A stretch of DNA of 64,000 nucleotides from Xestospongia bergquistia (lineage: Eukaryota > Porifera > Demospongiae > Haplosclerida > Petrosiidae). Below the pieces are notes generated by a model. That model had not been told where the DNA came from and searched no databases. It saw nothing but the letters and a program-made list of their open reading frames with translations. The position numbers were made by a program, and so were the translations under genes. How positions within the stretch are numbered: the stretch's first letter is position 1; every line of letters begins with the position of its first letter. Below, piece after piece: positions 37,468-64,000 of this stretch. The DNA lies in the NCBI GenBank assembly GCA_963965975.1, contig OZ014421.1, positions 67,001 through 131,000 of the forward strand, in the 5' to 3' direction.

Positions 37468-38523
37468 ATGGCTACACTTGAGGAGACTATTATCCACTCG
37501 AACGAAATGCCATCTTCTGCTAGCGAATTAGACAATAGATATTCTCCTATAGAAGAATCTCCTACTCGTGTTATGTCTAACGGAGAGCGACCAAGTCGAG
37601 AAGAACTGATCGATATGGTAAGAAAAGCCGGTATACCAGTGACAACAACAAGTGAACACAAGTCCTCGATATCAGAACCGTCTTCTCCACGGAAAGTTTT
37701 GGGTTGGCTAAACAATGTCCCTTTGAACACAATCAAAGATAATTCTAGTTGTAGTAGCAGTACTTTAACCTCCGAGGACGGTCATGTCGACTCACTTGAC
37801 TGTTTACCTTCTTCGAAACCTGGAAGAAGTGATAGTGACCCATTGAAATCATCCATTCCTGAGGTTGTAGTCAACGATAGCACAGACAACAATTTACAAG
37901 AATTTCGTGGACGTTCTGGTTCTCAATTTTATCATGAAAGTTTTACTCCAAAGACCAATACTTACAAACCAGTCATGTACATACCAGCTAGTCAAAGTGC
38001 TCAACAGCTAACTGTTTCTTTAGATAGGAAGAAAAAAGGTCTATTTTCACGACTTAGAAACAGTTTCCGTGGCAACAAGCACCGCCCAGTTGGACGTACA
38101 GTATCAGACAAGAGTGTGATGTTGAGCGGAAAAAGATGGATAGATTACGAAGAAGAACTTGACCCTGTTAGTCGGCCATCTTATTTTCGTCATATTGGAC
38201 ATGTTATAACAACTGGACCAGGTACTATTAAAACTATAGAACTAAACCGTCCAGCTCATGGAAAATTTGGAATATATATAGCCCAGGGATTTGATCCCGA
38301 ATCTACTTCACAAAAAAAGAGCATATTTGTGTCACGATTTTATCAAGAAAATATGAATAAATTTTATGCTAGTTTACTTAACCCAGGCGATGAAATTGTA
38401 GCCATAAATGGACATATTGTACGTGATCTCTCAATAACTGAAGTATCCTCATTACTTGAAGGAATACTAACTGTCAGATTAACACTATTACCTGTAACAG
38501 AATCAAAAAATGACCCAAGTTAA
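37468..38523 (+). CDS. PDZ-domain protein, single exon, 351 residues
   Basis: An uninterrupted reading frame from ATG 37468 (MATLEETIIHSNEMPS). Residues 1-175 are Ser-rich and probably disordered, with SPRK- and SP-type sites. About 185-215 is basic (DRKKKGLFSRLRNSFRGNK), a possible membrane- or actin-binding patch. About 250-345 is a PDZ fold: HGKFGIYIAQG corresponds to the carboxylate-binding loop (FGIY in place of GLGF), followed by IFVSRF, LLNPGDEIVAINGHIVRDLS, EVSSLL and TVRLTLLP. PDZ domains bind C-terminal peptides and assemble junctional or cortical complexes. The lack of introns is unusual beside its neighbours. Similarity to Par-family PDZ is possible, but I do not assign an orthologue. 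Confidence 0.8.
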   Translation: MATLEETIIHSNEMPSSASELDNRYSPIEESPTRVMSNGERPSREELIDMVRKAGIPVTTTSEHKSSISEPSSPRKVLGWLNNVPLNTIKDNSSCSSSTLTSEDGHVDSLDCLPSSKPGRSDSDPLKSSIPEVVVNDSTDNNLQEFRGRSGSQFYHESFTPKTNTYKPVMYIPASQSAQQLTVSLDRKKKGLFSRLRNSFRGNKHRPVGRTVSDKSVMLSGKRWIDYEEELDPVSRPSYFRHIGHVITTGPGTIKTIELNRPAHGKFGIYIAQGFDPESTSQKKSIFVSRFYQENMNKFYASLLNPGDEIVAINGHIVRDLSITEVSSLLEGILTVRLTLLPVTESKNDPS

Positions 38524-38888: not shown

Positions 38889-41448
38889 CTAGTTGTTGTC
38901 TTTCTTCACTGGATAGGCTGTGAATGTTGTTGAAGGAAAAGCACTAGAAACAGAACCACCTTGTTTACCAATACAACGAGCATAAGAACCTAGTTGTTTT
39001 CTGTGAGAGAGGGTGAAAAAGGAGTAAAGAGATACAGTAGGGGAGGAAGAAGGAGAAAAGAAGGGTTCAAGGAGGGGAGAAAAGTCAAACAGAATTAGAG
39101 AGGAAGAGGAGAGGGGACAAGAGAGGGTAAAAGGGGATAAAGGAGAGAGGGGAGATGAAGGAAGAAAGAAGGAGAGGGGACAGAGGGTAAAAGAAAAAGA
39201 GGGGAGATGAAGGAAGAAAGAAGGAGGAGGGGACAGAGGGGCAAAAGGGGAGAAAGGAGAAGAAGAGGAGATGAAGGAAGAAAGAAAACATAAAAGGGGG
39301 GACACCGGAGAGAGAAGAGGGAACCGGAATGAGATGATAGGAAAAAAACAAGAAGAGAATGAGATGATAGGTATCATCTCGAGAGTGATAGACTAACTTT
39401 AATTCTTGATAGTGTATTTTTTCTCTTGGAGTATCTGGTGGCTCAACTTCATAAGATACTAACAACAATTCTAGAGAGAGAGAGAGAGAAAGAAAGACAG
39501 GTCATCTGTCCATCCATCTCTATAAACTAACCATCATCAGTATGAATAGGAACAGTCATTAAATAATTCAATGTCAACCTGTGTCTTTCATAAGGTAACT
39601 AACAAAGGCACAAACCATCATATTATATAATACAATCAATAAATGACACTATAACTTACAACAGTCTCCTTCCAAGTCAATAATGGTGATACTAGTCTAG
39701 CTATACTAAGACATTTCTATGATAAATAATACATTATATTGTGAATAGTGTAAGTATATACATTACCTCAAATTTTATGAACCCGCTAGGAGTCCTGTAA
39801 AGAAAATAAAATGAGCTACCTCTCTATATGAACATTTTAAATGTTGGACACTGTCCTTAGACATGTCCTCAATATAGTAGTTAAATAAGCATAGAACAAA
39901 TGTCATAAATATAGAAGGTGTCCTTAATTCAGACTATTCTCTATAAGATATTCTACTACTATAATTCATTATGACTTACTTGTCTGGCATAGTCTGGTTT
40001 TGAAAGTATAGATCTTTGACTATTAGTGAGAAGAAAGGCACGACACAAGTGTTTGGTTTCTCTTTTCGTGCTCTCATCATGGCTACCTCTAGTGATGTTC
40101 GATATATCTTGAAATTTTCAGTAGGATCAAGGTAATGCTATTAGAGAGAGAGAGTTCAGTTACAGTCATAATAATAATAACTCATACTTCGAGTTCTTCA
40201 AACTTGTCACTGCTCAATTTTGCTCTCTGAAATTACAAATATATGACATTTTTATTTCTCAATATAATACTAGAACATACTGTCTTTTTGAGACGTACAA
40301 CTGGACTCATGTACAGGCCAGCTAAAGAAAGATAGGATAGATATAATTTCATTTATTAATGCATTAAATGGAAGCTCTCTATAGTGGACAATGCAGGACT
40401 TAAAAATTGTCCTCAATATAGAGGTTGTATAATACATTACAGTATTAGTATGGGACTAGAACAAGTGACCTCAATATAGAGGTTGTATAATACACTAAAG
40501 TATTCGTATGGGACTAGAACAAGTGTCCTCAATATAGAGGTTGTATAATACACTAAAGTATTAGTATGAGACTAGAACAAGTGTCCTCAATATAGAGGCT
40601 GTATAATGCACTAAAGTATTAGTATGGGACTGTCCTCAATATAGAGGTTGTATAATACACTAAAGTATTAGTATGGGACTAGAACAAGTGTCCTCAACAT
40701 AGAGGCTGTATAGTACACTAAAGTATTAGTATGGGACTGTCCTCAATATAGAGGTTGTATAATACACTAAAGTATTAGTATGGGACTAGAACAAGGTTGT
40801 CCTTAATTAAAAGTGCCTTTAATAGTATTTACTTACCAGCAATAGCCATAAAAGAATTAAAATTATTTAAACCCAAACACTGAATTGCTGTGTCAACAAA
40901 AAACTCCAATAATCTGACTCTATTCCTTTCTCTATCAGACTACAATATAATATTATATTATTATTAACAAAATGAGTAGGGGCTTACCACACAAATCTCA
41001 GTAGCTACTAAATAACTTAATCTGTTAAACCATTCAACATAAGCTTCTATATTACTGGTCTTTTTAACCTCCTATAAATAAATGTAATGTTTTAAAATTA
41101 TATATAATAATGAATAATACCCCAGAATCTGCTGGGGATTTTATAAATGTCTGCACAAATTCTTCCGGTCCAATATTATTGAGCCTTTCCTTTAAAAAGA
41201 AAGTTAAATATTTTATGAAGAGGGTGGAATTATTGTACCAGCTCAATGTGTGTTAATTGTTGTGCTAAAATAAGAGGATTATCACAAGTTCTTAATATGT
41301 CCACCTGAAAATAATATACAATAAAATTAATGGGTTTATTTTAATTCTCTTCCTCTCTCTCTCTCTCTCCCTCTCTCCCTTCCTCCCTCTCTCTCTGTCT
41401 CTGTCTCTCTGTCTCTCTCTCTGTCTCTCTCTCTGTCTCGTCTCTGTC

Positions 41449-41482
<34 letters not shown>

Positions 41483-43634
41483 ACTTGTGTTCGAGGATCT
41501 ATCAATTTCTGCAAGGCTACAGCATTAACTTGACTTAGCACATGTTCATATCTGTCTAATGTTGAAAGGTTCTGAATAAGAGTCGATTGTAATTGGCCCA
41601 CTTCTCGTCTTTGCTCCTATTAATAACAGTATTAATGAGATAAATCATGAATTAAATTAAATTAAATTACAGGAGATAGAGTTGCACAGATCTGAGTAAT
41701 ATCTTTTAATGCACGCATCATTTTTTCATCACGGAAGTCATAAGGAAACGTCTCTGTCCACTCTCTAATTAACTGTACAAAGTGAGGGACCGGACTCTTA
41801 CGACCAGGCTAATAAATTAGTAAATAATTATAGGGACTAACTCAATACACTCATACTTTCTTTGAAGTTGTAGATTGTTGTTGTATAACTTGAAATATCT
41901 ACATAACAGAATTTAAAAGCATTTATTTATCAGAGTTAGCTTACTCTTGAGAATCTTGTTAGTAACTGATGAGGCTGTATAAACATTCTTGAGCACAAAA
42001 TGAAAGCAAATATGAACGTTCTCTGTAAACAACAAAATAATAATAATTTGTAATGTTGATCTTTATATTGGACACTATTGAACAGTATAGAAGTGTCCTC
42101 AATATAGAGTACACTGAAGTATTAGTATGGGACTAGAACAAGTGTCCTCAATATAGAGGTTGTATAATACACTAAAGTATTAGTATGGGACTAGAACAAG
42201 TGTCCTCAATATAGAGGTTGTATAATAGACTAAAGTATTAGTATGGGACTAGAACAAGTGTCCTCAATATAGAGGTTGTATAATACACTAAAGTATTAGT
42301 ATGGGACTAGAACAAGTGTCCTCAATATAGAGGTTGTATAATACACTAAAGTATTAGTATGGGACTAATCCTAATATAAAGGATGTCGTTTATAATATTT
42401 CTATTAATATTAATATCTTACCTCAGGATAATATGATTCAGTTGGAATTAATAGTTGTATCAATGCATCTAAAGATCCAGCCACTACAACACCATCTTTA
42501 TATTCTATTTCCTATACAAAAAGATCCAATGATAACACTATAAGTTAGAAACATACTTCAGCTAGTTGCTGTGGAGAATACAACATTGACTTAGCATCAT
42601 CACTGCGAAATCTGTAATCATCAGTTTTTTTATGCTGAGCAAGCTAGTACAAAAGTTTAATTAATGCTTAATGAAGGAGCTTACCTCATCCATTTTGGCA
42701 GCATATAGCCTCTCCTTTGGGACCATACTATCAAACACTGAGGGCTGAAGAAGTAATAGTTCATAATGAGACAATAATTCTACTTAATAATGACACAGTC
42801 TGATATGGGCTATCCTACCATTAATGCAAAGTACAGTGGAACATCTCTATAGTGGACATGTTGGGAACTTAGAAAATATCCTTAGTATAGAGGTGCCCTC
42901 AATATAGAGTTTATAGAATATGCTAAAGCTTTAGTATGGGATTAGAGTATCCTAAATAAAGAGGGTCTCCTTTGTCCTTTATAAGAGGTTCCACTATAAG
43001 AGTTATTGGTCAATGCTAGCACTTACCCTTCTCTTAGGAGTCTGTTTCATACCGATGGCTGGTAAACTACGAGATACCTATATTAAATCAAGAAACATTA
43101 AAAACTAACATCATTGATCGATTTGTGGTAATACCTGAATTTTCCTCTTATGTATCATACCCATTGACTGCATTTCCTGCACTAATCGTTGATATTGTGA
43201 TCGTATCCGCCTACATACAAATATATTATCTATAAACCTGATATAATGTTACTGACATCAGTGTATTCTCTTGTGTCTCCAACTCTTTGTCCTTCAATTT
43301 CAATGTAGAGAATAAAGATAGTCAGGTTATAGAGCCTTACCTTGTTGTCTTTAACAGCATTATGTCCTCCTCCAGTGTGTTTAGCTAGTTCTATTTCTGT
43401 TTTTAAAAGCCTCAATTTCTGCTCTTCAGCTTCAAGAAGGCGCTCTGTGACCTGCAAAGGCAAAGGGGTAACGCCCCCTCCCTTTATTGTGTTCATCTCA
43501 AGATAAGCTTGGTATGAGTTTCTTTTATTTTAAAAGTGACATTTTTATTTGGTTTTTCTCACCTCTAGTTGAATATGAAGGATATCTTTTAACTTGTTTG
43601 AGGGTAAGTCTTCTCTCGCTTTTTCTGATGCCAT
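38889..43634 (-). CDS. RASGEF1-type Ras guanine nucleotide exchange factor
   Basis: About two dozen short exons from ATG 43634 (MASEKAREDLPSNKLKDIL) to the stop at 38889 (AYPVKKDNN). An N-terminal helical region (EAEEQKLRLLKTEIELAKH) resembles an HR1-like coiled coil. Next comes a RasGEF_N module (YKDGVVVAGSLDALIQLLIP, YYPERTFIFAFILCSRMFI, EWTETFPYDFRDEKMM). The catalytic CDC25 domain follows (NPLILAQQLTHIELERLNNI, SYLVATEICV, RVRLLEFFVDTAIQC, NFNSFMAIAAGLYMSPVVRL, HYLDPTENFKIYRTSLE, GFIKFE). This order and wording match the RASGEF1A/B/C family, which loads GTP on Rap/Ras GTPases. Introns hold MITE arrays, a polypurine block and CT tracts. It is divergent from the 43767 gene. Confidence 0.85.
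39003..39370. repeat. Polypurine minisatellite in the last RASGEF intron
   Basis: Almost only G and A on + over more than 300 bp, with a degenerate unit of 52-64 bp (ggagatgaaggaagaaag at about 39151, 39203 and 39267). Open frames across it are low-complexity artefacts. Confidence 0.8.
40378..40810. repeat. 58-bp repeat array, about 7 copies, in RASGEF intron
   Basis: Units read actaaagtattagtatggga, then ctagaacaagtgtcctcaat, atagaggttgtataatac. Two units lack the ctagaacaagtg segment. Left flank ctctctatagtggacaatg matches the MITE end. Confidence 0.9.
41350..41484. repeat. (CT)n/(CTGT)n microsatellite in RASGEF intron
   Basis: CT-rich tract that ends directly at the acceptor of the next RASGEF exon (cactTGTGTTCGAGGAT on +), so it lies within one short intron on the donor side of the minus-strand exon. 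Confidence 0.85.
42080..42395. repeat. 58-bp repeat array, about 5 copies, in RASGEF intron
   Basis: Near-identical units in the same orientation as at 43905. Confidence 0.9.
42836..43005. mobile_element. Single-unit MITE showing both ends
   Basis: The left end is agtggaacatctctatagtg. The right end reads tttataagaggttccactat, which is its imperfect inverted complement. Between them lies one diverged 58-bp core. This is the clearest non-amplified member of the family in the window. No transposase is encoded. Confidence 0.65.
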
Positions 43635-43766: not shown

Positions 43767-46069
43767 ATGGCAGAAGCTTATCATTATGAAGCTTTAAGGA
43801 AGCAGCGAGTCCTAGATAGAGCTGCTGAGGCTAGAAGCAGAATGGAGGCTCAGAAGAAAGTAAGTTGATTCCAGCATTCATTTATGGGATATCGTTAAAC
43901 TCTTTACAGTGGACAAATGGATATTGTCCTTAATATAGAGGTTGTATAATACACTAAAGTATTAGTATGGGACTAGAACAAGTGTCCTCAATATAGAGGT
44001 TGTATAATACACTAAAGTATTAGTATGAGACTAGAACAAGTGTCCTCAATATAGAGGTTATATAATACACTAAAGTATTAGTATGGGACTAGAACAAGTG
44101 TCCTCAATATAGAGGTTGTATAATACACTAAAGTATTAGTATGGGACTAGAACAAGTGTCCTCAATATAGAGGTTGTATAATACACTAAAGTATTAGTAT
44201 GGGACTAGAACAAGTGTCCTCAATATAGAGGTTGTATAATACACTAAGTATTAGTATGGGACTAGAACAAGTGTCCTCGATATAGAGGTTGTATAATACA
44301 CTAAAGTATTAGTATGAGACTAGAACAAGTGTCCTCAATATAGAGGTTATATAATACACTAAAGTATTAGTATGGGACTAGAACAAGTGTCCTCAATATA
44401 GAGGTTGTATAATACACTAAAGTATTAGTATGGGACTAGAACAAGTGTCCTCAATATAGAGGTTGTATAATACACTAAAGTATTAGTATGGGACTAGAAC
44501 AAGTGTCCTCAATATAGAGGTTGTATAATACACTAAGTATTAGTATGGGACTAGAACAAGTGTCCTCAATATAGAGGTTGTATAATACACTAAAGTATTA
44601 GTATGGGACTAGAACAAGTGTCCTCAATATAGAGGTTGTATAATACACTAAGTATTAGTATGGGACTAGAACAAGTGTCCTCAATATAGAGGTTATATAA
44701 TACACTAAAGTATTAGTATGGGACTAGAACAAGTGTCCTCAATATAGAGGTTATATAATACACTAAAGTATTAGTAGGGGATTAAAACAAGTGTCCCCAA
44801 TATAGAGGTTGTATAATACACTAAAGTATTAGTATGGGACTAGAACAAGTGTCCTCAATATAGAGGTTGTATAATACACTAAGTATTAGTATGGGACTAG
44901 AACAAGTGTCCTCAATATAGAGGTTGTATAATACACTAAAGTATTAGTATGGGACTAGAACAAGTGTCCTCAATATAGAGGTTATATAATACACTAAAGT
45001 ATTAGTAGGGGATTAAAACAAGTGTCCCCAATATAGAGGTTATATAATACACTAAACTATTAGTATGGGACTGTCTAGAATATAGATGGTCATACATTAT
45101 TAAAATATATCTTGATGTGTGTATTATTTAGAGATATGCTGACAAAGCAGTACAGGTAGACGGTGATTTAGGCACAGCCACTTCAAAACAATCTCCATGT
45201 AAACAGTCAAAGAGCTCACGTAGAGGAACACACTTACAAAAGAGGGCTGAGACCATCTTGAGAGACTTACACAAGTAAGAATTATTGATACTTCTTGTTC
45301 CTTTAAAGTTCCAATATTCTCTATTTATTGCGACTCCCAAAAATCTCTTTACTATATATATATATGTATTCATATTGAAAAGAGGAGTACCCTAATAATT
45401 AAGGGCATATTAACAATGTTGTTTAGATAAGATTTAACTATAGGGGATATTTATAGAGAGTTATCGATTCAATTAGGAATCAAATATTGCGTAATATAAT
45501 GAAATATAGTAGTATTTTGTAAACATTGACAACATGAATAATAGCAAGGACGTCCTGTCAGTACTATAAATTTCTTCTAAGAACATAGTTGGGACAAGTT
45601 TTTGGTAAAGTTTCTCAGCAAGTTCTCTCAAAGTATTTGTATACTAATAATAGGGGAGTACCCTAATAAGTAAGGGTATTATTACTATTATTAGAATAGG
45701 GGGGGACCTGGGGGGCCATGCCCCCCCCCCCCAACCAAATACATAATCATTTTATTTTATGTGACACACAAAATAATAATATACAGCATATATATGCATG
45801 TGTCAAACTAAGTAAATAATAATGCCCCCCTCACCCCCCCCCCCCCCCAATAAGAAATTCATTCTTACACCTATGGTATAGGACTAGAAATGTTCTAAAT
45901 ATAGAGTGTCCTTTTAAAGATATTTCATATATTAAAATATTAACATTTTTATAGACAAGAAATGATTCTTCGCGATAGTAATCTTGTTATGGGACCTATA
46001 TCATTGGAGGAAGAACTCAAGTTAATTGAATCAACAAAAAGAAAACACCATAATAAAAAGAAACAATGA
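43767..46069 (+). CDS. Small basic coiled-coil protein, about 117 residues
   Basis: Three exons: 43767-43859 (MAEAYHYEALRKQRVLDRAA, ending QKK before GTAAGT), 45132-45274 (RYADKAVQVDGDLGTATSKQ to RDLHK) and 45956-46069 (QEMILRDSNLVMGPISLEEE to KRKHHNKKKQ, stop TGA). The phases agree at both junctions. The protein is helical and highly charged, with a Lys/His-rich tail that could act as a nuclear localisation signal. I do not recognise the family. The first intron (about 1.27 kb) is almost entirely the 58-bp satellite array, and the second holds the poly-G/poly-C blocks. Confidence 0.65.
43905..45085. repeat. 58-bp minisatellite array, about 20 copies
   Basis: Head-to-tail units of 58 bp (some 56 bp, lacking AA in cactaaagtat). 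The core contains the near-palindrome cctcaatatagagg. Variant units recur in order: the tatgagact variant followed by ttatataat occurs near 44025 and again near 44315 (5 units), and the rare gggattaaaacaagtgtccc unit near 44772 and 45005 (4 units). This shows amplification in multi-unit blocks. The flanks (ctctttacagtggac on the left) match the MITE ends. Confidence 0.95.
45688..45850. repeat. Poly-G / poly-C blocks in intron
   Basis: Runs of 7 G, then ggggggcc followed by a run of about 14 C, and a later C run. They can fold back on each other and stand out in a roughly 30% GC setting. Two tracts reading gagtaccctaataa plus agtaagggt or attaaggg occur nearby (45384 and 45654), suggesting a duplicated insertion. 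Confidence 0.7.
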
Positions 46070-47084: not shown

Positions 47085-47855
47085 TACTAGAAATATAGAC
47101 GTTATATAATACACTAAAGTATTAGTATGGGACTAGAACAAGTGTCCTCAATATAGAGGTTGTATAATACACTAAAGTATTAGTATGAGACTAGAACAAG
47201 TGTCCTCAATATAGACGTTATATAATACACTAAAGTATTAGTATGGGACTAGAACAAGTGTCCTCAATATAGAGGTTGTATAATACACTAAAGTATTAGT
47301 ATGAGACTAGAACAAGTGTCCTCAATATAGAGGTTGTATAATACACTAAAGTATTAGTATGGGACTAGAACAAGTGTCCTCAATATAGAGGTTGTATAAT
47401 ACACTAAAGTATTAGTATGGGACTAGAACAAGTGTCCTCAATATAGAGGTTGTATAATACACTAAAGTATTAGTATGGGACTAGAACAAGTGTCCTCAAT
47501 ATAGAGGTTATATAATACACTAAAGTATTAGTATGGGACTAGAACAAGTGTCCTCAATATAGAGGTTGTATAATACACTAAAGTATTAGTATGAGACTAG
47601 AACAAGTGTCCTCAATATAGAGGTTGTATAATACACTAAAGTATTAGTATGGGACTAGAACAAGTGTCCTCAATATAGAGGTTGTATAATACACTAAAGT
47701 ATTAGTATGGGACTAGAACAAGTGTAGAGGTTGTATAATACACTAAAGTATTAGTATGGGACTAGAACAAGTGTCCTCAATATAGAGGTTGTATAATACA
47801 CTAAAGTATTAGTATGTGATTAGAACAAGTTTCCTCAATATAGAGGGTGTTCTTA
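47085..47855. repeat. 58-bp minisatellite array, about 13 copies
   Basis: Same unit and orientation as 43905-45085. It lies between the convergent 3' ends of the cystine-knot gene and the GCAT gene. One unit is truncated (near 47727). The atagacgtt variant occurs near 47096 and 47212, two units apart. Confidence 0.95.
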
Positions 47856-48071: not shown

Positions 48072-50237
48072 CTATTTAAGTACACCTTTCTCTCTACCAA
48101 CATCAATAAACGCTTGAATACATTTATCAATATCTATTATATCGTGCACTGCTGACAACTGGACACGTATTCTAGCTTCTCCTATTGAAATACGTAAGAA
48201 ATATTAGACAAAATAAAAAAAAAATTCTATACCTTTCGGAACCACAGGATAACTGAAACCAACAACATAAATGCCTTTTTCTAATGATAAAAGACAATAT
48301 GGTTAGGCCAGCTGCAACCCCAAAGCCTTACCAAGCATTTTATTAGCAAACTCTGTGGCTAGTCGAGCATCACCCAACATAACTGGTACAATAGGATGTT
48401 GATCACCCTGTTATGAGAAATATAGGAAACAGCTGTGTATGCTACCTTTAAATTCTATTATAATACCACAGTCTAACATGAAAGGATTCTACAATATTCT
48501 AAACAAGATCATAGACTGTAAAATATGATAATAAAGACGTGAGACTAGAGTCGAATATGGACTTAGACGATTTACGCATTATAGTAAACAAGTGTCCAAG
48601 AACACATTGAATTTACGAGACTTTACTATATTTTACTGAAATATCTATTATTCTGAATATTGTTAACCTGAATGTTTGTATTCATTTATCCATCTATTTA
48701 ACAGTAGGCTGTCCATTACAATAACATACTATACGCTAATGTTGTTTGTTAGAAGGTGTTATGTGTAACATATCACAAGACTAATACAATGTAGTTAGGC
48801 TGCACCTCACATTAAGGGTTCTGTAGCGATAACTAAATCCTTAATAGGCAGATTAACGCAATAAAAATGATTTAATATTTGGTAATAATATCAGTGCTTG
48901 ATTGTGCTTGCATATAATAATGTGTACTTGTAAGTCTTGCTAAAAAACATTGTCACATGACGCATATCACTATATGTACTGTTGGAGCTGTGACTGTCCC
49001 TTTGTATAGATATGCCTTCAATATAGAGGTTATGATCTCCTAAATATGGAGAGTATCTTTATGGGAGAGTGTCCTTTATGATAAAATTTATTGACATCAT
49101 AAGCTATTCTGAGAAAAAGGTGGGATAATTTCAAAAGAATACTCGACTTTAAACATTCAATAAAAAATAATTTTTGGCTATAAAATATACCAAATAAGGT
49201 AATATAGATAACTTGAACAATACCGTCAAAAATAACTTGGACAGCTTTCCAGAACAACCACTTAACTTCAAGGATTCAAGTGGAACAACACTCATTCTAT
49301 TAAGGACACTTGTTCTAGTCCCATACTAATACTTTAGTGTATTATACAACCTCTATATTGAGGACACTTGTTCTAGTCCCATACTAATACTTTAGTGTAT
49401 TATATAACCTCTATATTGAAGACATCTCTATACTAAGGACAGTGTTCCATAGTGTCTACTATAGAGACAAATCTCTTACTTTCAATGTAAAGCCAGCTTC
49501 AGTCATGCACTCCCTAAAATACTTAGTATTCTGTTGTAACTTCTCACACAAGTCTGATCCATCCATTAACAGATCAAAAACCTATTAGTAACCATAGCAA
49601 CATAATGACATCATTACGACATCATACTTTACTAGCACCAGCCACTACAGAAGGTGGAAGTGTATTAGAAAAGAGGTAAGGCCTTGATCTTTGCCGCAAT
49701 AAATCGATAACTTCTTGTGGCCCAACGGTATAACCTCCTATTGTAATAAGAGAGATATAGTTTAGTAATGGGAGAAAAGCACTGACCAGACGCTCCTCCG
49801 AGTGCTTTTCCAAGAGTAGAATTTATTATGTCTACTCTTCCTTCACAGTCCAGGTGTTCTTCTGTGCCTCTGAAATAAGAGAAGGGTACAATCATAATCA
49901 CAAGTGTCTCATTTTACTAATAACAACACTTTAAAAATGTAATATTAGTGGAATACCTTCCAGTTTTCCCCATAAAACCAGTTGCATGGCACTCATCCAC
50001 AAAAACCATAGCATTGTACTTATCAGCTAAGTCACAGAGACCTCTGTTAGAGACAAAACATTTGATCGTATTTTGTGATGTGCTTACTGGAGCGGAGCTA
50101 CGTTGCCGTCCATACTAAAAACACCATCTGTTACAAGTAATTTCATACGAGAATTTGTGTCTGCCTGTAGCATGCCTTCTAACTCTGTTAGATCTGAAAA
50201 AAGAGATGGATATTCTCTTGCTTTCCCTCCTTCCATC

Positions 50238-53297: not shown

Positions 53298-54443
53298 ATG
53301 CCTAAAGGCGGTAAAGGTAAAAAGAAGAAGGAAAAACAAGTCCAAGATGGTGAGTTATCACGTGATTACAATAGAACCTCTATAAAAGGACGCATTTGTT
53401 CTATACAAATACTTTAGTGTATTATACAACCTCTATATTGAGGACACTTGTTCTAGTCCCATACTAATACTTTAGTGTATTATACAACCTCTATATTGAG
53501 GACACTTGTTCTAGTCCCATACTAATACTTTAGTGTATTATATAACCTCTATATTGAGGACACCTCTGTACTAAGGACACTTTCAAGTTCTCAGTGTTCA
53601 TTATTGGAAGTTCCACAATAAAAAATAAATCATTGTTATGATATGATATCTCTCTTTTTCTCCTCACAGAGGGTGCTACTGGACTGTTAACTGTACCACA
53701 GACTTGTCTCGGAGATGATAGTGATAGTGTATGTAGTTCTATTCCAGATAGCGTACTGAGTGACGAATGTAAGTAGATAATCAGTGGGTGTGGTCAATTT
53801 CACCCCTTTTTAGTACTTTCCGAAGGTGCCACTGAAGAGTCTGATAGTGACTCAGAACTCCAGTTTCAACTTTCAGAGCATATAGATCACCTTAGTGATA
53901 AAAAGTGAGTTTTAAATGACCACACCCATTTAACCACGCCTCTTAGTACACAGACAAGACTGTCTGCTTTATCCTGTCTCACCGAAACTCTTAAACATAA
54001 AATGGTCACACAATTATTGTCTGGAAGGTATGTAAACCAATGATGTCATAATGATGTTATTATGATGTCATCAAATAGGGTGGAGGGACTTATTGATATT
54101 TTAATCAAAGGAGTTAAAAAAGTCCGTGGTCAAGAGAGACATGATCTTCTCTTGCTAGTGTCTTTAGTGGCATTGCAGTTTGGTGATGAACATCCTGAAC
54201 TTTGTGTTGCTCTTCATCCTGGTTTGGTCTCATTACTTCATGACCCTACTGTAACGAATATGGAGAGAAGTGCTGTAAGTATTATTGTAAATTAATTATT
54301 TTATAAATAACGGGGGTTTTCTCTTTTAGGCATTGTCTACTTTAACATTATGTACTTTTTTGATGTGTCAGGATATGAAGGTAAAAAATGGAAGCTTTTT
54401 GACACACACATAAACTCTCTGTCTCTCTCTGTCTCTGTCTCTT

Positions 54444-54583: not shown

Positions 54584-56328
54584 TCTGCTCTGTCTCTCTC
54601 TCTCTCTCTCTCTAGCAAGTAGAGACAATAATGCATGAATGTGAGACTGTCTACCACACCATTAAAATTGACAATATACTCACAGCTGCTGTCAAAGGCT
54701 GGGCTCTCCTACTGTCTATTGTACCCGACCATGCTATTCCAAATATCTTTGCCAGGTATGACCTTAGCTACAGAAAAGACCTTTTATAATGGACATCCTC
54801 TATATTGAGGACACTTGTTCTAGTCCCATACTAATACTTTAGTGTATTATACAACCTCTATATTGAAGACACATGTTCTAGTCTTATACTAATACTTCAG
54901 TGTATTATACAACCTCTATATTGAGGACACCTCCATACTAAATATAAGTTTGTGACATGTCTCCTGTACCAGACATTAATATCATTTTGTACTAATTAAC
55001 CTTTATTTAAAGGAAATACCCTTTAAACTTTAACCTTGTAGGTTGTAATGTTCCTATATTATTATATTATATTCTATCATAACATTTAACTAACTAGGGA
55101 AAAATATTTTTTAAACAATTATGCATAATAGAGTGTTAGTAACTTTGAATGATACATATTGTAGTCCCTGGATAATTAATGTTAAGTTATTAAAAATGCT
55201 AATATTATATTAATATTAGGAAATACACAGGGTTTACCTCATGCAGTGATAGTCTAGATTTAATGACAAATAAAACTGTGATCTGTTAGATTGTCCAGGA
55301 TAAAGTGAACTTTAAGAATTGTTACATTCTATAGTGTACTAACATTTCTTTTTTCTTACAGTCAATTGTCTCATTTGACTACTATTCTGGAGAGCAGTAG
55401 TAATTTGGAACTTAAAGTAGCTACAGGACAGGCTATAGCTCTCCTACTTGAGCTAGCAAGGGAAACAGATGATGAGGTATAAATTAGTGGGTGTGGGCTA
55501 TTTATTAATGGGTGTGGTTTTTAGTTATTGGACTGTGAAGAGTTTGAAGTGGTGTGTGGTGTTGTTCAGACAATAGCAGCTGAGAGTAATCGATATACTG
55601 GAAGACGAGAGAGGAACCAACAAAGATCAAGTTTTAGAGACATCGCACAGACAGTAGAGGTATAGAACACTCATTGATAACACTTAAGAAACTTGGATGC
55701 CATCCCTAATATGGAGGTGTCCTCAATATAGAGGTTATATAATGCACTAAAACATTAGTATGGGACTAGAATAAATATCATAAAGATAGAGGGTGTTCCC
55801 TTTAAAGATTCTTGACTATTAAGGACATTACTATCTTCAACACACAGACTGGGAGTGTCCCTGAGCGACAGATAAAGTTTGGCTTAGAAACACTTCACTT
55901 GGATTCTTGGTCAAAGTAAGACAATTTAATTGCTCCACCCACTAACCACGCCCACTCTAGATTAGTACAATACAGTACAATCACGGACTTGTTGGCTACT
56001 GGCAGTAGAACCCACTTTCAAGTATTTTTAACCCTTTTATGACTCTCATATTAAGCTCTATTTTAGAACAATGAATTATTACGTGATATATTTCAACTAG
56101 GAACACCACCATTAGTACAACAAGAATCTAAAGCTGATAAAATTGAAAGAGTAAGTACAACTAAACCCCTGTTATAATCAATTTTAATTAAGTCACTAAT
56201 TATTTCCATCATTATTATTATTTTAATATTACCGGCTTTTCTTTTATTAGAAATTATATAATGCTGCAGTTGCTAAGTGGAGATCACAATCTCGAGGGAA
56301 ACAAAGAGACAAACGAGCTGTTTTGTAA
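53298..56328 (+). CDS. Interferon-related developmental regulator (IFRD1/2, Tis7/PC4) homologue
   Basis: About 13 exons from ATG 53298 (MPKGGKGKKKKEKQVQD, basic N-terminus) to TAA 56328. An acidic Ser-rich stretch (EESDSDSELQFQL) is followed by HEAT/armadillo-like helices typical of IFRD: RLSALSCLTETLKHKMVTQL, GLIDILIKGVKKVRG, LLLLVSLVALQFGDE, SALSTLTLCTFLMC, AAVKGWALLLSIVPD, TGQAIALLLELARE. The conserved C-terminal IFRD region follows (RSSFRDIAQTVE, ERQIKFGLETLHLDSWSK, LLRDIFQLGTPPL, KAKWRSQSRGKQRDKRAVL-like end). IFRD proteins are transcriptional co-regulators and ribosome-associated factors. Introns contain MITE copies and a long CT tract (54415-54614). Confidence 0.9.
53385..53630. mobile_element. 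MITE with three inverted 58-bp units in IFRD intron 1
   Basis: The left end aatagaacctctataaaagg and right end tattggaagttccacaata are imperfect inverted complements. Three reverse-oriented core units lie between them. Diverged members lie at 54780-54950 and 55685-55820. Confidence 0.7.
54415..54614. repeat. (CT)n/(CTGT)n microsatellite in IFRD intron
   Basis: A roughly 200-bp CT-rich tract. It ends directly before the CAAGTAGAGACAATAATG exon of IFRD, so it may act as an oversized polypyrimidine tract. Confidence 0.9.
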
Positions 56329-57764
56329 TATTATTTATTATATTACATTAAAAATTATAATTATTATTATATTACTTTATAATTATAATTATTATTATTA
56401 TTATATTACTTTATTATAATAATGTTATTGTTATAAAGTTTATTGATTGTTTATTAATATTATTTATAATATTATTATATTACTTTATAATGACGTTATT
56501 GTTATAAAGTTTATTATATAATTAATGATTGTTTATTAATGATATATTATTTATTATAAATAAATTATATTTAATTATAATATAATAATAATTATAGTAT
56601 TTCCAGTTATAAAAGACTGCAATAATACAACTTAAATTATCTTATTTGTTCATCAGTTTGATATTAATTCTCTATTGTTCATCTAATCTTTCACTGTTAA
56701 ATCTACTGTCATTATGAACTGGTGTCATATCTATTATATAACATCATTTATACTATATATCTACAGTGATAGATTGATAGGTTTTGAAAATTTTCTTCTA
56801 AAATGACCACTAATTATAAAGTTATTGTAACTCTGTCTACTTTCAATAGATTCTCTAGTAAAACATCAGTTATATGCTGAACTATATGAATTAATATGGT
56901 ATTCATAAGGTTATATAATATTATTTATTATTGTATTGTTTTATTATTATTAATAGTGTTTATTGTTACAAAATTAAGTATATAATCAAAGATTGATATT
57001 AATAATGTATTGTTCATTATAAAGACATTATATTTAATTATTTTTCAAAATAAAGATGATATGATTATTAATTACTAGTTAATATTAATTATCTTTAATA
57101 AAATGAATGACACATTAGTTACCATGGCAACAAATGTAAAATAAACTTTATTCTTTGGTCTCATAAACCAATCCCTCATTCTTTACATAATAAGTTAAAT
57201 TGAATGTTTATTGAAATTGGAATGTCCGTCTTCGGCTTCTGTAAGCAACTAACTAACATCATTTATTGTGTACTTACAATGACAAATACCATTCACTATA
57301 TAGCTAATATATAGTTACAATATTACACTACACAAATGATGTCATAATCACAGTAATTTAATTTGTATAGTTACTAGAATTCTTATGAAATTATCATAGC
57401 TACTAGTAGAGTATTCATTCTTTAGATATTATATTTAAAAGTATTTCTTCAAACATGACCACTAATCACAAAGTTATCTTATGAATTACTATGGTATTCA
57501 CAAGAAGTGATGTCAAAGCTAACTTTTATAGCTGGAAATACTATATATTGACATCACTTCTTGTGAATACCATAGTAATTCATGTAGTTTGGTATGAAAG
57601 GGATGTAAGTGAACTATTCTAGGTAACCAATTTGTGACTTACAAGGTGTTACTATAGAATCTATTAGGCTGCAGTTATACAACTTAAATTATCTTGTTTG
57701 TTCATCAGTTTGACATTAATTCTCTATTGTTCATCTGATCTTTACTGTTGAATCTACTGTCATT
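56329..57764. other. Intergenic region with repeats of the beta-helix gene family flank
   Basis: AT-rich. At 56714 there is a tiny relic of the beta-helix family start (MNWCHIYYITSFILYIYS, then a frame ending after about 30 residues). The surrounding 56600-57480 matches the flanks at 58140-58460 and 63050-63890, in places inverted. No full gene was found. Confidence 0.6.
57481..57583. repeat. Perfect 35-bp inverted repeat (hairpin)
   Basis: The left arm 57481-57515 and right arm 57549-57583 are exact reverse complements around a 33-bp spacer. Sequence to the right of the hairpin (to about 57660) is the reverse complement of 63655-63745, so the hairpin is the centre of an inverted duplication of the gene family flank. 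Confidence 0.9.
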
Positions 57765-57929
57765 ATGAACTGGTGTCATATCTATTATATAACATCAGTT
57801 ATACTGTATATCTACAGTGGATATGTTACTGCTTCTGAGTATTATGTCTCTGCAACTCCTAATGGAGTACCTTGTTCTCATACTGACCTACTGTTCTCAT
57901 ACTGAGATGATGATATGTGGATTGGTTAC
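57765..57929 (+). pseudogene. Beta-helix membrane protein relic, internally deleted
   Basis: It starts as the intact gene does (MNWCHIYYITSVILYIYSGY, ...SEYYVSATPNGVPCSHTDL), then is shifted into a stop at 57903-57905. About 20 bp later it matches the DMWIGY region of the intact gene (60960) and then jumps to its 3' flank (62850). Over 3.5 kb is deleted. Confidence 0.8.
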
Positions 57930-58466
57930 ACTATGTATTGCAGCATTGAGCAAAATTACCTTTTGTAAATGACCATATAAGGAAATATGAAATTATATTC
58001 ATAGAGGACTTGTGGTATTATAACCTACGTTTACGTATTTTAACCCTTTGATAACTCTTATTGAGCACTTGATAACATGACATGACCAACTGTTCATTTC
58101 AAATATCTATTCTTAAAGAAATTGGCTAAATTTGTAGTTATTAGAGTTCTTATGAAATTATCAAAGATACTAGTAGACTACTCATTGTTTAGTTGATAGG
58201 TTTTGAATATTTTCTTCTAAAGTGACCACTAATTATAAAGCTATTGTAACTCTGCCAACTTCTAATAAATTCTATAGTAAACATGATATACACTTACATC
58301 AGTTATATAACAAACTATATGAACTATGGTATTGACAAGAAGTGATGTCAATATATAGTATTTTCATTATATAATAGGCTGCAATAATACAACTTAAATT
58401 ATCTTGTTTCTTCATTAGTTTGACATTAATTCTCTACTGATCTTTACTGTTGAATCTATTGTCATC

Positions 58467-61400
58467 ATGACCTGGTGTCATATCTATTATATAACATCAG
58501 TTATACTGTATATCTACAGTGGATATGTTACTGCTTCTGAGTATTATGTCTCTGCAGCTCCTAATGGAGTACCTTGTTCTCATACTGACCTACCTTGTCA
58601 CAACCTCTCCTACTATACTGATGATTATACATCTTACTTCACTGATGACACAATCTTCTACTTCCTAGAGGGAACTCATATTCTACAAGGTACATTGGAG
58701 ATCATTGGTGTAAGTAATATAACTCTACAGGGACTGGGTCATATAGAACAAGGCTTTCATGAGACAGTTATGCAATCTACCTCAGTAATAATGTGTAGTG
58801 ATTATGACAGAAGTGGTATACAATTTATTAGTAGCACAAATATTGTATTGGAATCATTAACAATAGCAAACTGTGGGTTTAGCTGGAATATGTATTATAT
58901 AAAGGTTAGCTTATTCTTTATTGACATCAACAATGTTGCTTTAAAATGGGTATCAGTCCAGAATGGTTCTGGTATTGGACTCTATCTTTACAATGCTTTT
59001 GATGTGTTAATTGCTAATTCAACATTTGCTAATAATGGAGGTCTTAAGTATAATGCAGACAATACAGTAATTTTCTATGATGATCAGGTTAAAAGACTGT
59101 CCAGAGTTAATATTGTGAAATCAAATTTTACACTGGGCTCAGGGATTGGCATGAATTTTTCGTATTTTAGTGATAATAAAGTTGAGGTAATCATTGAAAA
59201 AAGTAAATTTTCACATAATACTGCTCAATATGGAGGAGGAATTACAATTACTTCTTATGCTAGAAGTGGTAGTATTGGGTTCAGTAACTGCACTATATAC
59301 AACAATACTGCTCAGGATAGAGGAGGAGTGGGGATTAATTTGTTTGATGGAAGTGGTAGTATTGAGTTCAGTAACTGTACTATATATGACAATACTACTC
59401 AGAATGGAGGAGGAGTGGGGATTAATTTGTTTGATGGAAGTGGTAGTATTGAGTTCAGTAACTGCACTATATACAACAATACTGCTCAGGATAGAGGAGG
59501 AGTGGGGATTAATTTGTTTGATGGAAGTGGTAGTATTGAGTTCAGTAACTGCACTATATATGACAATACTGCTCAGTATGGAGGAGGAGTGGGGATTAAT
59601 TTGTTTGATGGAAGTGGTAGTATTGAGTTCAGTAACTGCACTATATATGACAATACTGCTCCGGATGGAGGAGGAGTGGACATTTTTTTACTTGATGGAA
59701 GTGGTAGTATTGAGTTCAGTAACTGCACTATATATGACAATACTGCTCAGGATGGAGGAGGAGTGGACATTTTTTTACTTGATGGAAGTGGTAGTATTGA
59801 GTTCAGTAACTGCACTATATATGACAATACTGCTCAGAAGATTGGAGGAGGAGTGGGCATTTTTTTACTTGATGGAGATGGTAGTATTGACTTCAGTAAC
59901 TGCACTATATACAACAATACTGCATATTATGGATCAGGTGTCAGTGCTTTACAAGATGCTTCAACAAGTAGGATTCATTTTACAAATGTTTCGTTTTATT
60001 TCAATAAAGTATCAAACAAGCATCATAAATATCATTCTGCTGTGTTACTAGAAAACATTAAAAATGTTACTTTTGACCAAATTGACATTAGTAATCATGA
60101 CACAACTGGTTTACTCAGTATCAATAGCCCAATCATTTTTGATGGACATAATACATTTATAAACAATTCTGGCATTAATGGTGGGGGCATGGCTTTATAT
60201 GGATTCTCCCAATTATTACTAAAGCAGAATACGAGCATATCATTTGTCAATAATCATGCCAGTGAGTCAGGTGGAGGAATCTTTGTGTCACAAGTTATTG
60301 ATGGCAATGACTTGACAATTTGTTCCTTTAAGAATTTTCCTTATTATAATACTAATACTAAGACAATGTTGTATTTTGTCAACAATACAGCTGATATATC
60401 TGGTGATGTCTTGTATGGAGGGAAAATCTCTGATTGTTCATACTTTGACTTTGATCACCAATTTTATTATCCTCAACAAACAGGTCTATCAGTAGTATCA
60501 TCAGATCCTATTCAAGTGTGTTTTTGTGAATCAAACAGACAAAATTGCTCTATTAGAAACATCAATATAACTGCAATACCTGGAATTAATGTCAATATAT
60601 CGCTAGCTACTGTTGGTAATAAAGATGGCTTAACAAAGGGTGTGATAAAATTGACAACATCAGATAGTTCATCATCTAATGTTCAAACTGACAATACTAG
60701 ACTAAATGCAACTTGTACCAATGTAACCTTTAAGTTAAGAGCAAAACCTTCATTGAATACAACACAAGTCTATGTAACATCGGAAAGTTTAATCAGTGAA
60801 CTTTCATCTAATGACATTCACTATGTTAAAGTCATTGAAGTTAACATTGAGTCCTGTCCAATTGGGTTTCCATTAATAAATAATGCTTGCAGTTGTAGAT
60901 CTGAATTAAATACATCTTCAATAATTTGTGATATTAACACTCAAATTATAACTAGAGATGGTGATATGTGGATTGGTTATAAAAATGACTCAGACTGTCT
61001 TATTGTTTATCCTCATTGCCCCTTTGATTACTGCAATGATGGAACAGTTCATTTTAAAATCACTTCTCCTCATCCACAGTGTCTTCTCAATCGATCTGGC
61101 ATACTCTGTGGACAATGTTCTGAAGGACTTAGTCTCATGTTAGGTTCCAATCAATGTGGACAATGTTCTAATAACTACATAGCTCTTATCATTCCATTTG
61201 CTTTAGCTGGTATAGCATTGATAGCTTTTATCATTGCTTTAAATTTAACTGTGTCTGTGGGTACAATCAATGGACTTATATTCTATGCTAATGTTGTCAA
61301 AATATATGAACCTATCTTCTTTCCAAATGGTCCTGTGAAACTTCTTAGTCAATTCATTTCCTGGCTTAATCTTGATCTGGGTATTGAGACTTGTTTCTTT

Positions 61401-62402
61401 GATGGTATGGATTCTTGCAGTAAGACATGGCTACAGTTTATCTTTCCAGGCTATGTTTGGTTTCTACTAATACTCATTATAATATTATCACAATATTCTA
61501 GCAAAGTGGTTCGACTTGTTGGTTCGCATGCAGTTCCAGTACTAGCCACTATGATCCTTCTCTCTTATACTAAACTGATACGTACTGTCTTCCAAGCTCT
61601 TTATTTCACCAATATTCAATGTAATGGTAATAATAATGTCCCATTATTGAGGTGGTACATTGATGCTAATGTCCAATATCTAAGAGGTTGTCACATACCA
61701 TTGTTCCTGTTCTCACTGGCTGTACTCATTTTACTAATTGTTCCATACACCTTCTACCTTCTAACAATACCATTACTTGAAGGACCTTTATCAAAATACA
61801 TGTGTTGCTGCCAAAAGTTATGGAGATATATGAAACCTTTCTTTGATGCATATGGAGGTCCATATAAGGACAAGTGTCGTTTTTGGACTGGATTTTTACT
61901 ACTAGTTCGTATTGTCTTAGCACTGGTTGTGTCTCTAGATACTGAGGCTACTATAAGTTTGGATGTGTTAACATCTCTTTTATTTGTTATTATATCAATG
62001 TACTTCCTTTTGAGAGGAATATATCGACATTTACCTTTAGCTTGTCTAGAGATGTCTTTTTTTCTTAATCTCATGTTTATGGCTTATGTGAGTGTACAAA
62101 CCTACAAAGCGTCAAATTCAAGGCAAGTATTAAGTGTTGCTTTAGTAACAGTATCATTTGTAGTATTCTGTGGTATTATCCTCTATCATGTCTGGGATCA
62201 ACTATCTAAATATTGTTTAAAACGACCATTTGCAAAAATTACAAGGGTATTTAAGAAGCCTCCATCAGATCCTGTTACTGATGATGCAGTCGTTCCTTTA
62301 ATACGTCCTGGATCCCCTGCTTTAATATGTAATACTAGTTCAGTGAGTGTGGTATCAGTAGTAATGAGACGAGAATCACTACTGGATGATGAAGATGACT
62401 AA
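58467..62402 (+). CDS. Beta-helix-repeat multipass membrane protein, 1311 residues, single exon
   Basis: ATG 58467 gives a signal peptide (TWCHIYYITSVILYIYSGYV), then SEYYVSAAPNGVPCSHTDLP. Residues 80-680 are Asn/Gly/Ser-rich right-handed beta-helix-like repeats resembling Pmp-type FxxN/GGG motifs. About 260-490 consists of eight near-identical 29-residue units (EFSNCTIYDNTAQ, GGGV), each with an N-C-T glycosylation sequon. Residues about 790-895 are Cys-rich (SGILCGQCSEGLSLMLGSNQ). From about 900 there are roughly eight hydrophobic helices (first YIALIIPFALAGIALIAFII), then an acidic, Ser-rich cytoplasmic tail (ESLLDDEDD). It is probably a surface receptor or adhesion protein with an extracellular carbohydrate- or ligand-binding solenoid. 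The family is not named. A relic copy lies upstream and another copy begins downstream. Confidence 0.75.
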   Translation: MTWCHIYYITSVILYIYSGYVTASEYYVSAAPNGVPCSHTDLPCHNLSYYTDDYTSYFTDDTIFYFLEGTHILQGTLEIIGVSNITLQGLGHIEQGFHETVMQSTSVIMCSDYDRSGIQFISSTNIVLESLTIANCGFSWNMYYIKVSLFFIDINNVALKWVSVQNGSGIGLYLYNAFDVLIANSTFANNGGLKYNADNTVIFYDDQVKRLSRVNIVKSNFTLGSGIGMNFSYFSDNKVEVIIEKSKFSHNTAQYGGGITITSYARSGSIGFSNCTIYNNTAQDRGGVGINLFDGSGSIEFSNCTIYDNTTQNGGGVGINLFDGSGSIEFSNCTIYNNTAQDRGGVGINLFDGSGSIEFSNCTIYDNTAQYGGGVGINLFDGSGSIEFSNCTIYDNTAPDGGGVDIFLLDGSGSIEFSNCTIYDNTAQDGGGVDIFLLDGSGSIEFSNCTIYDNTAQKIGGGVGIFLLDGDGSIDFSNCTIYNNTAYYGSGVSALQDASTSRIHFTNVSFYFNKVSNKHHKYHSAVLLENIKNVTFDQIDISNHDTTGLLSINSPIIFDGHNTFINNSGINGGGMALYGFSQLLLKQNTSISFVNNHASESGGGIFVSQVIDGNDLTICSFKNFPYYNTNTKTMLYFVNNTADISGDVLYGGKISDCSYFDFDHQFYYPQQTGLSVVSSDPIQVCFCESNRQNCSIRNINITAIPGINVNISLATVGNKDGLTKGVIKLTTSDSSSSNVQTDNTRLNATCTNVTFKLRAKPSLNTTQVYVTSESLISELSSNDIHYVKVIEVNIESCPIGFPLINNACSCRSELNTSSIICDINTQIITRDGDMWIGYKNDSDCLIVYPHCPFDYCNDGTVHFKITSPHPQCLLNRSGILCGQCSEGLSLMLGSNQCGQCSNNYIALIIPFALAGIALIAFIIALNLTVSVGTINGLIFYANVVKIYEPIFFPNGPVKLLSQFISWLNLDLGIETCFFDGMDSCSKTWLQFIFPGYVWFLLILIIILSQYSSKVVRLVGSHAVPVLATMILLSYTKLIRTVFQALYFTNIQCNGNNNVPLLRWYIDANVQYLRGCHIPLFLFSLAVLILLIVPYTFYLLTIPLLEGPLSKYMCCCQKLWRYMKPFFDAYGGPYKDKCRFWTGFLLLVRIVLALVVSLDTEATISLDVLTSLLFVIISMYFLLRGIYRHLPLACLEMSFFLNLMFMAYVSVQTYKASNSRQVLSVALVTVSFVVFCGIILYHVWDQLSKYCLKRPFAKITRVFKKPPSDPVTDDAVVPLIRPGSPALICNTSSVSVVSVVMRRESLLDDEDD
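59245..59940 (+). repeat. Eight tandem 87-bp coding repeats
   Basis: Each unit codes for 29 residues around SGSIEFSNCTIYDNTAQ plus GGGVGINLFDG or GGGVDIFLLDG. Units are nearly identical at the DNA level, including synonymous positions. One unit has a 1-codon insertion (AQKIGGG). The INLFDG and IFLLDG types are grouped, not mixed, indicating stepwise unit duplication. Confidence 0.95.
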
Positions 62403-63894: not shown

Positions 63895-64000
63895 ATGAAC
63901 TGGTGTAATATATATTATATAACATCAGTTATACTGTATATCTACAGTGGATATGTTACTGCTTCTGAGTATTATGTCTCTGCAGCTCCTAATGGAGTAC
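63895..64000 (+). CDS. Next beta-helix membrane protein copy (partial, runs off the window)
   Basis: ATG 63895 followed by NWCNIYYITSVILYIYSGYV and SEYYVSAAPNGV, in frame to the edge, as at 58467. The upstream 150 bp is also conserved, so promoter and start are duplicated together. Confidence 0.75.
   Translation, partial: MNWCNIYYITSVILYIYSGYVTASEYYVSAAPNGV

Follow-up and report, generated by a model that had tools for sequence, protein, structure and literature searches.

What kind of protein is encoded by a giant single-exon gene that recurs in tandem in the genome of the sponge Xestospongia bergquistia, and what might it be for? The gene lies on the + strand at 58467..62402, stop codon included, of the 64,000-nucleotide stretch of contig OZ014421.1 that we analyzed, here called the window, and all features given below are on the same strand. 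Its reading frame runs for 1311 aa without a stop from signal peptide to tail, and the coding part therefore needs no intron, as a first-pass annotation of this DNA had proposed; genes of Amphimedon queenslandica have 4.2 introns on average, with a mean intron length of 326 bp (PMC4773876). The tandem duplication proposed in the same annotation is also confirmed, with the next paralogue beginning at 63895 (63895..64000, start only in the window; its full length is locus L033, 1464 aa) and two 5′ fragments of paralogues located upstream, one consisting of a signal peptide and first residues followed by a stop (57765..57905) and a shorter one with its end set by eye (56714..56768). A conserved upstream block (58340..58466) contains a TATA-like stretch (58368-58376) followed by a common leader that ends at the ATG; comparing by eye the window gene, 15 further genes and the two window fragments, we found this pattern to be common to 15 of the 16 genes, the exception being L043. 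Since the tandem copies share upstream DNA, a retrocopy origin of the missing introns is not favoured for this cluster. The DNA encoding the signal peptide (58467..58538, aa 1-24, putative cleavage site) is nearly frozen across the family, with a 53-mer from it present at 103 places in the genome with at most 3 mismatches, 46 of them exact, and at none in the control.

A genome-wide count of paralogues, which the first-pass annotation had suggested, gave 164 scored loci and at least 179 when the listed motif places were added, a lower bound because the count drew on 100 of the 166 motif places and, in the searches, on the matches listed. Segmental duplications that are selfish or decaying and do little for the animal would explain the broken copies that are present, namely the 5′ fragments in the window and 11 of the 164 scored loci, in which a stop interrupts the match; this is very improbable, as frames of at least 1000 codons with no stop in the match are kept in 128 of the 164 loci, the membrane core is under purifying selection, and the measured coil residues besides 1, 3, 5 and 6 are conserved (see below). 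Near-identical ectodomains sit on different tails: L033 and L038 are 96-100% identical over the upstream region and ectodomain and only 69-79% identical over the C-terminal ~170 codons, and L036 and L039 likewise combine near-identical ectodomains with a diverged C-terminal part. Three near-identical 6096-bp units represent recent copies, and these could reflect an assembly effect.

The ectodomain, about aa 25-640 (58539..60386), is a predicted right-handed beta-helix, scoring 109.7 bits with the PF13229 (right-handed parallel beta-helix) profile against a cut-off of 25.9. Structure prediction, set beforehand as the check on this claim with the lack of a solenoid as its refutation, returned a solenoid, with three predicted strands per coil in a stacked fold. 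Of the structural matches, we rely on those from VIA with an rmsd of about 3-4; in 5 of the 50 VIA matches listed the rmsd is near 19-20, and the Foldseek matches have low TM-scores by query length (0.07-0.29), with 8 of 353 at E ≤0.001. Eight of the 14 control prokaryotes also carry PF13229, and the best PF13229 place in this genome (C2:12102919) resembles a different kind of gene, with a 155-aa open frame containing a stop. Lyases, epimerases, glycosidases and phage tailspikes are frequent among the structural matches, as would be expected of a surface enzyme that degrades or modifies polysaccharide on its beta-helix; the fold alone is no proof of activity, the most exposed coil residues are the least conserved, and we regard such an enzyme as highly improbable.

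Within the ectodomain, TRF identified an 87-bp unit in 8.1 copies with 92% matches (59217..59923), encoding eight coils of 29-30 aa and bearing out the repeats read from the sequence in the first-pass annotation. That annotation also gave one glycosylation sequon per coil: sequons are indeed enriched, with 12 in residues 264-500 versus 4.4 +/- 1.8 in shuffles (0 of 2000 shuffles reach 12) and 32 versus 15.9 +/- 3.4 over the ectodomain, but a coil holds one or two of them, not strictly one. The number of canonical coil motifs per gene varies from 0 to 13 among 19 genes, and is zero in 5 of them. Between this solenoid and the membrane lies a predicted membrane-proximal part, about aa 641-903 (60387..61175), Cys-rich at its end and modelled with pLDDT <50 over most of residues 669-903.

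Each repeat carries a few hypervariable positions on a fixed scaffold. In the window protein, the hypervariable strands of seven coils (aa 288-293, 317-322, 346-351, 375-380, 404-409, 433-438 and 463-468) fall within 59328..59870. Across 91 coils from 14 genes, the hypervariable positions 1, 3 and 5 that follow the GGG turn have entropies of 3.18, 3.03 and 3.00 bits, the intervening V, I and L are conserved at 1.02, 0.26 and 1.07 bits, and position 6 is intermediate at 2.02 bits. The coil search expression fixed the FSNCTIYxN core and the GG, so conservation is inflated there; the V-x-I-x-L-x stretch was not part of this selection. These counts cover coils with a GG turn, i.e., not the eighth window coil, and exclude the short linker of variable length that precedes GGG; L034 and L035, which are near-identical to L033, were left out of both these counts and the regional rates. 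The V-x-I-x-L-x residues form one predicted strand in 7 of the 7 mapped coils of the window protein, and positions 1, 3 and 5 would point outward, judging by their alternation with hydrophobic residues. After identical coils were dropped (64 distinct coils, 12 genes), pN was 0.61 at positions 1/3/5 and 0.14 at V/I/L, and any alternating triple among the 15 residues before the turn gave pN ≤0.15.

Measured against pooled synonymous rates, the excess of replacements between genes at positions 1/3/5 is clear, with pN over pooled pS of 2.27 (bootstrap 1.83-2.90) versus 0.37 at the 19 other coil positions, and 1.86 (1.59-2.29) when gene pairs are weighted equally. When pS is instead taken locally, from the very codons being compared, the exposed positions have a pN/pS of 1.55 over all coils; with equal weighting of gene pairs (identical coils likewise dropped, L038 and L039 additionally left out), it is 1.12 (0.87-1.60), which is not significant, and the excess is no longer clear. 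Given this last value, relaxed constraint on the outer face may be an alternative. By region, pooled pN/pS is 0.65-0.83 in residues 101-640 and 0.29 in residues 906-1140, which agrees with the annotated rapid evolution of the repeats and places the membrane core under purifying selection. Pooled values are also high in the signal peptide (0.68), in residues 25-100 (0.67) and in the last 171 residues (0.64), and region-wide rates alone therefore fail to single out the solenoid.

Alternatively, the protein might be a coat glycoprotein or a structural adhesin. Its ectodomain would then act as a glycosylated glue or spacer with an outer face drifting under weak constraint, and the family size would derive from unstable tandem arrays. 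Such a protein would fit the dense sequons, a local pN/pS not clearly above 1 and the near-identical 6096-bp copies. Drift, however, hardly explains alternate-residue variation that is confined to one of three strands per coil while the measured residues elsewhere vary little, and a coat has no need of a conserved multi-pass domain and tail motif; we consider this explanation unlikely.

The multi-pass membrane domain, aa 904-1240 (61176..62186), is common to all 41 aligned members and contains a DAYGGPYKD motif, which in the form DAYxGPYKD occurs at 166 places in the genome and at none in the control. Hydropathy averaged over the 41 paralogues gives 11 above-threshold stretches that group into eight cores, in line with the eight helices of the first-pass annotation; a ninth, weak segment may be present as well, judging by basic loops, loops that carry cysteines and, in a low-confidence model, a helix at fragment residues 37-52. 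The model of this domain is poor (pLDDT 56), and its Foldseek matches (best E 1.0) and VIA matches were set aside, given this low confidence and with none standing out. A membrane transporter or channel could in principle be the working part, with the large ectodomain as its sensor or tether. Searching Pfam with the 41 members at E up to 1 listed 13 families (best E 0.001) with no convincing match, and neither a transporter or channel nor a 7TM family was among them; no PDB sequence relative was found at E up to 1, and a transporter would not ordinarily be expected in well over 100 copies that differ in their ectodomains. We consider a transporter or channel improbable. The tail that follows (62187..62399), presumably cytoplasmic, varies between tail types and ends in MRRESLLDDEDD (62364..62399), with a RESLL-type motif, conserved in the alignment of 41 members, where the second R, the following E and the second L are invariant. 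It contains an RRES motif, which we take to be a PKA-type consensus. A search of the genome with the B tail led us to reject a clean two-class A/B system: close copies (≥72% over the whole query) occur at six loci, and elsewhere the matches, which span most of the query, grade through identities of about 48-67%, and the two tail types are therefore local to the window cluster.

Short peptide patterns identified no relatives in phages or GTDB genomes, nor in IMG/VR (one protein; alignment), these scans covering viral and prokaryotic collections with a few such patterns. Bacterial transfer of the gene is not favoured, because these scans gave no prokaryotic relative of the membrane part, a TATA-like leader precedes the coding sequence and the protein carries N-glycosylation sequons. 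Similar membrane domains may be present in cnidarian and choanoflagellate proteins, and sponge gene models may have received automatic "pmp" names. In a literature survey mostly of papers outside subscription, judged by title and the opening of the abstract, we recognized none on this receptor family; the terms pmp, beta helix, transmembrane and SRCR are all absent from the main text of an allograft transcriptome study (PMC5450542), and the available parts of PMC7385117 and PMC4302439 contain no mention of the family that we could find.

Together, at least 179 loci, the varying number of canonical coils, the hypervariable positions that each coil carries on a single predicted strand and a conserved membrane core give good support to the variable surface receptor family suggested by the first-pass annotation. 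The window gene is probably a member of a very large, germline-diversified family of cell-surface recognition receptors, with ligand binding predicted. The hypervariable strands would stack into one long beta-sheet, with an outer face forming a ladder of changeable contact residues that may bind a microbial or self glycan or glycoprotein. Polysaccharide is the substrate of many beta-helices in the PDB. A binding signal would then travel along the Cys-rich neck into membrane domain and tail, perhaps through phosphorylation of RRES, and diversity may arise as coils are added or lost, as genes with different tails exchange ectodomain sequence and as selection acts on contact residues. More tentatively, and with less than even confidence, we propose a VLR-like germline repertoire built on a beta-helix in an early-branching animal, with three changeable residues per coil on one stacked sheet, coils that are gained, lost or swapped, and the same ectodomain joinable through the membrane domain to different signalling tails, for self/non-self or symbiont recognition.

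LRR, WD40 and Ig make up the short list of scaffolds known to be used for diversified recognition, and the beta-helix would join them if this proposal is true. To our knowledge, the receptors behind self/non-self discrimination in sponges are largely unknown. Sponges make this distinction with remarkable specificity, as stated in PMC5450542, and the window family provides a large, testable set of candidates in which the residues expected to carry specificity are named. The multi-pass domain, present in every aligned member and with no convincing Pfam match, is a further problem of interest.

How does this family compare with known systems? The first-pass annotation called the solenoid Pmp-like, which holds for its shape only; the DUF2069, DUF5123 and Chlamydia_PMP (PF02415) matches in the window protein are all below their own cut-offs (Chlamydia_PMP, 12.5 versus 20.6 bits), paralogue L033 scores above the latter cut-off at 24.9 bits, and L037, L043 and L045 have no Chlamydia_PMP match among those listed with E ≤0.1. 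According to PMC11166332, chlamydial Pmps are likewise multigene surface proteins with beta-helix coils bearing GGA-type and FxxN-type motifs, but are bacterial autotransporters with adhesion and epitope features in side loops. An autotransporter barrel is lacking in the window family, whose C-terminal part has eight strongly hydrophobic stretches and is modelled, at low confidence, as helical. Hydractinia Alr and Botryllus fuhc, the polymorphic allorecognition proteins of sessile invertebrates, have other folds and few loci and are not known to carry solenoid repeats. The VLRs of jawless fish are LRR solenoids of variable repeat number, with hypervariable outward and conserved inward residues on one sheet, and are somatically assembled and GPI-anchored, whereas the window family consists of germline genes encoding a beta-helix with a multi-pass anchor; among the Pfam matches listed for the window protein with E ≤1, none is to an LRR family. 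Sponge SRCR and NLR expansions have been studied as immune repertoires, with domains unrelated to those described here (PMC10855680 and PMC12909245). Similar in pattern are the HNWD genes (het-d, het-e, het-r) for non-self recognition in Podospora anserina, which, according to PMC2873952, have near-identical repeats in variable number that are exchanged both inside a gene and among genes, with diversifying selection acting on the binding face at a few set positions of the repeat (the two alternate-codon pairs 7/9 and 25/27), though in a fungal STAND protein with a WD40 beta-propeller rather than in a beta-helix on a membrane protein. VLRs and HNWD receptors share the logic proposed here for the window family, on scaffolds of their own.

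The window gene is an intact reading frame of 1311 codons (58467-62402, forward strand) that starts with a signal-peptide-like stretch, contains a region matching the Pfam beta-helix profile PF13229 (E = 1.4e-31) and has a C-terminal portion made up of a hydrophobic part and then a charged tail. Inside the gene lies a tandem array with an 87-bp unit in 8.1 copies (59217-59923), and upstream of it an inverted repeat, recognized by eye at 57480-57590, carries a motif found again upstream of family genes. The family counts reported here come from one genome of 146.46 Mb in 21 contigs, in which the window occupies positions 67001-131000 of contig C11; GC content in the window is 24-38% per 2 kb.

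Variation within the repeated coils of the ectodomain is strongly patterned. We aligned on two anchors 91 coils from 14 full-length genes (17 were searched, and two near-identical copies dropped), extracted by a pattern that itself fixes part of the coil. The strand following the GGG turn reads V-x-I-x-L-x, with entropies of 3.18, 3.03 and 3.00 bits at the three x positions and 1.02, 0.26 and 1.07 bits at V, I and L. The next residue is intermediate (2.02 bits), and the remaining residues counted, i.e., excluding the short link of variable length before the GGG, range from 0 to 1.24 bits. In the predicted structure, V-x-I-x-L-x coincides exactly with a single strand in all 7 mapped coils of the window gene, an eighth without the GG turn having been left out; the model of the membrane domain is poor. 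Stacking of the coils would thus bring these strands, one per coil, together into a sheet whose outer face is hypervariable.

A set of 64 coils that all differ in sequence has a pN of 0.61 at the x positions and of 0.14 at V/I/L; for the 19 coil positions left after excluding x and the intermediate residue, pN is 0.10. Between genes, the ratio of pN to pooled synonymous differences is 2.27 at the x positions (bootstrap over 12 genes 1.83-2.90) and 0.37 at the 19 others; weighting gene pairs equally gives 1.86 (1.59-2.29) for the x positions. When the synonymous differences are taken from those three codons alone, the ratio is 1.55, or 1.12 (0.87-1.60) with equal weighting, which is not clearly above 1. 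In a full-length alignment of 15 genes, the ratio reaches at least 2 in 48 of the columns that hold enough data: 36 at residues 101-640, 7 at 641-840, 3 at 841-1140 and 2 at 1141-1311. Pooled pN/pS by region is 0.68 for the signal peptide, 0.67 for residues 25-100, 0.83 for 101-260, 0.76 for the coils, 0.65 for 501-640, 0.58 for 641-840, 0.42 for the Cys-rich neck, 0.29 for 906-1140 and 0.64 for 1141-1311. Within the tail, the second R, the E and the second L of the RRESLL motif are invariant in 41 of 41 members, unlike the residues around them; RRxS is a PKA consensus. A similar motif is readable near the end of L071, a paralogue on contig C8, but in a different frame from its membrane domain, so this copy may be damaged.

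The family is large. Used as query, the window gene's membrane domain gave at least 99 scored matches (each with E of 4e-177 or better), a diverged member gave at least 98, and a member of the C8 cluster at least 108, those beyond its own cluster mostly at 38-54% identity. Merged, the three lists comprise at least 164 loci. In 128 of these 164 the frame stays open for 1000 codons or more and no stop interrupts the match, and in 11 the match is interrupted by a stop; giant single-exon frames are therefore the rule among scored loci. The DAYxGPYKD motif of the membrane domain occurs at 166 places in the genome versus 0 in the control, and adding the 100 of these that were listed gives at least 179 loci over 11 contigs, with 79 on C11, the window's contig, and 63 on C1. 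The signal-peptide 53-mer is found at 103 places with up to 3 mismatches, 46 of them exact (control, 0), and a search with the first 261 residues yielded 150 matches. A genome search with PF13229 yielded 108 matches, many coinciding by eye, from unmerged lists, with family loci in frame place and length; the best resembles another kind of gene, and the profile also matches in 8 of 14 control prokaryotes.

Coil number is itself variable, with 0 to 13 canonical motifs per gene in 19 full-length genes. Coils of one gene are more alike (0.868, n = 270) than coils of different genes (0.803, n = 2215). The paralogue L033 also shows a three-coil period, and together these observations indicate repeated internal duplication. 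L033 and another paralogue, L038, have 2 base differences between roughly 900 bases upstream of the ATG and 1650 downstream, diverge by up to 4% on to 3300 and by 3-11% to 3900, and beyond that by 20-45%, a level that continues to the end of the frame and downstream of the stop codon. The pair L036 and L039 shows the same pattern (last part 16-49%), so this cluster holds nearly the same ectodomain with two different C-terminal ends. Median dS rises from 0.07 in the signal peptide through 0.17 in the membrane core and 0.29 in the last 171 residues to 0.33 in the coils. Exchange between genes is the best explanation for this regional mosaic. The nearly identical L033, L034 and L035 (G000:C11:134021, 140117 and 146213), spaced by exactly 6096 bp, either arose by triplication very recently or reflect an effect of the assembly. 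Among the matches listed, six loci spanning 0.7 Mb (G000:C11:1497574-2227204) have a common frame length of 1174 aa, which suggests recent dispersal. The stretch upstream of L043 (gene at G000:C11:332172) is without the TATA-like leader common to the other 15 genes compared.

Elsewhere in the window, tandem copies of a coiled-coil and kinase gene lie on the reverse strand at 1990-3036 (Pkinase, E = 2e-31), 11590-12753 and 28884-29942. A repeat with a 21-bp period is found at four places (1027, 10638, 18058 and 27932), so the units probably number four, one without a frame of at least 250 aa. A forward-strand frame at 37468-38523 has a PDZ domain match just at the Pfam cut-off. A 58-bp minisatellite forms dispersed arrays in both orientations, with up to about 20 copies (36313-36502, 40408-40795, 42110-42367, 43925-45072, 47092-47850, 49298-49424, 53403-53563 and 54793-54930).

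In its anatomy the family matches a surface recognition receptor, with a fixed scaffold, predicted contact residues changeable at fixed places, a changeable length, and a constrained membrane part and tail motif. In the open-access literature, searched by titles and the starts of abstracts, no paper recognizable as describing this family was found. The closest described logic is that of the lamprey variable lymphocyte receptors (VLRs) and the HNWD non-self recognition genes of the fungus Podospora anserina, and the family belongs to neither. In the HNWD genes, concerted exchange of repeats is accompanied by diversifying selection acting on two pairs of alternate codons at the binding face (PMC2873952).
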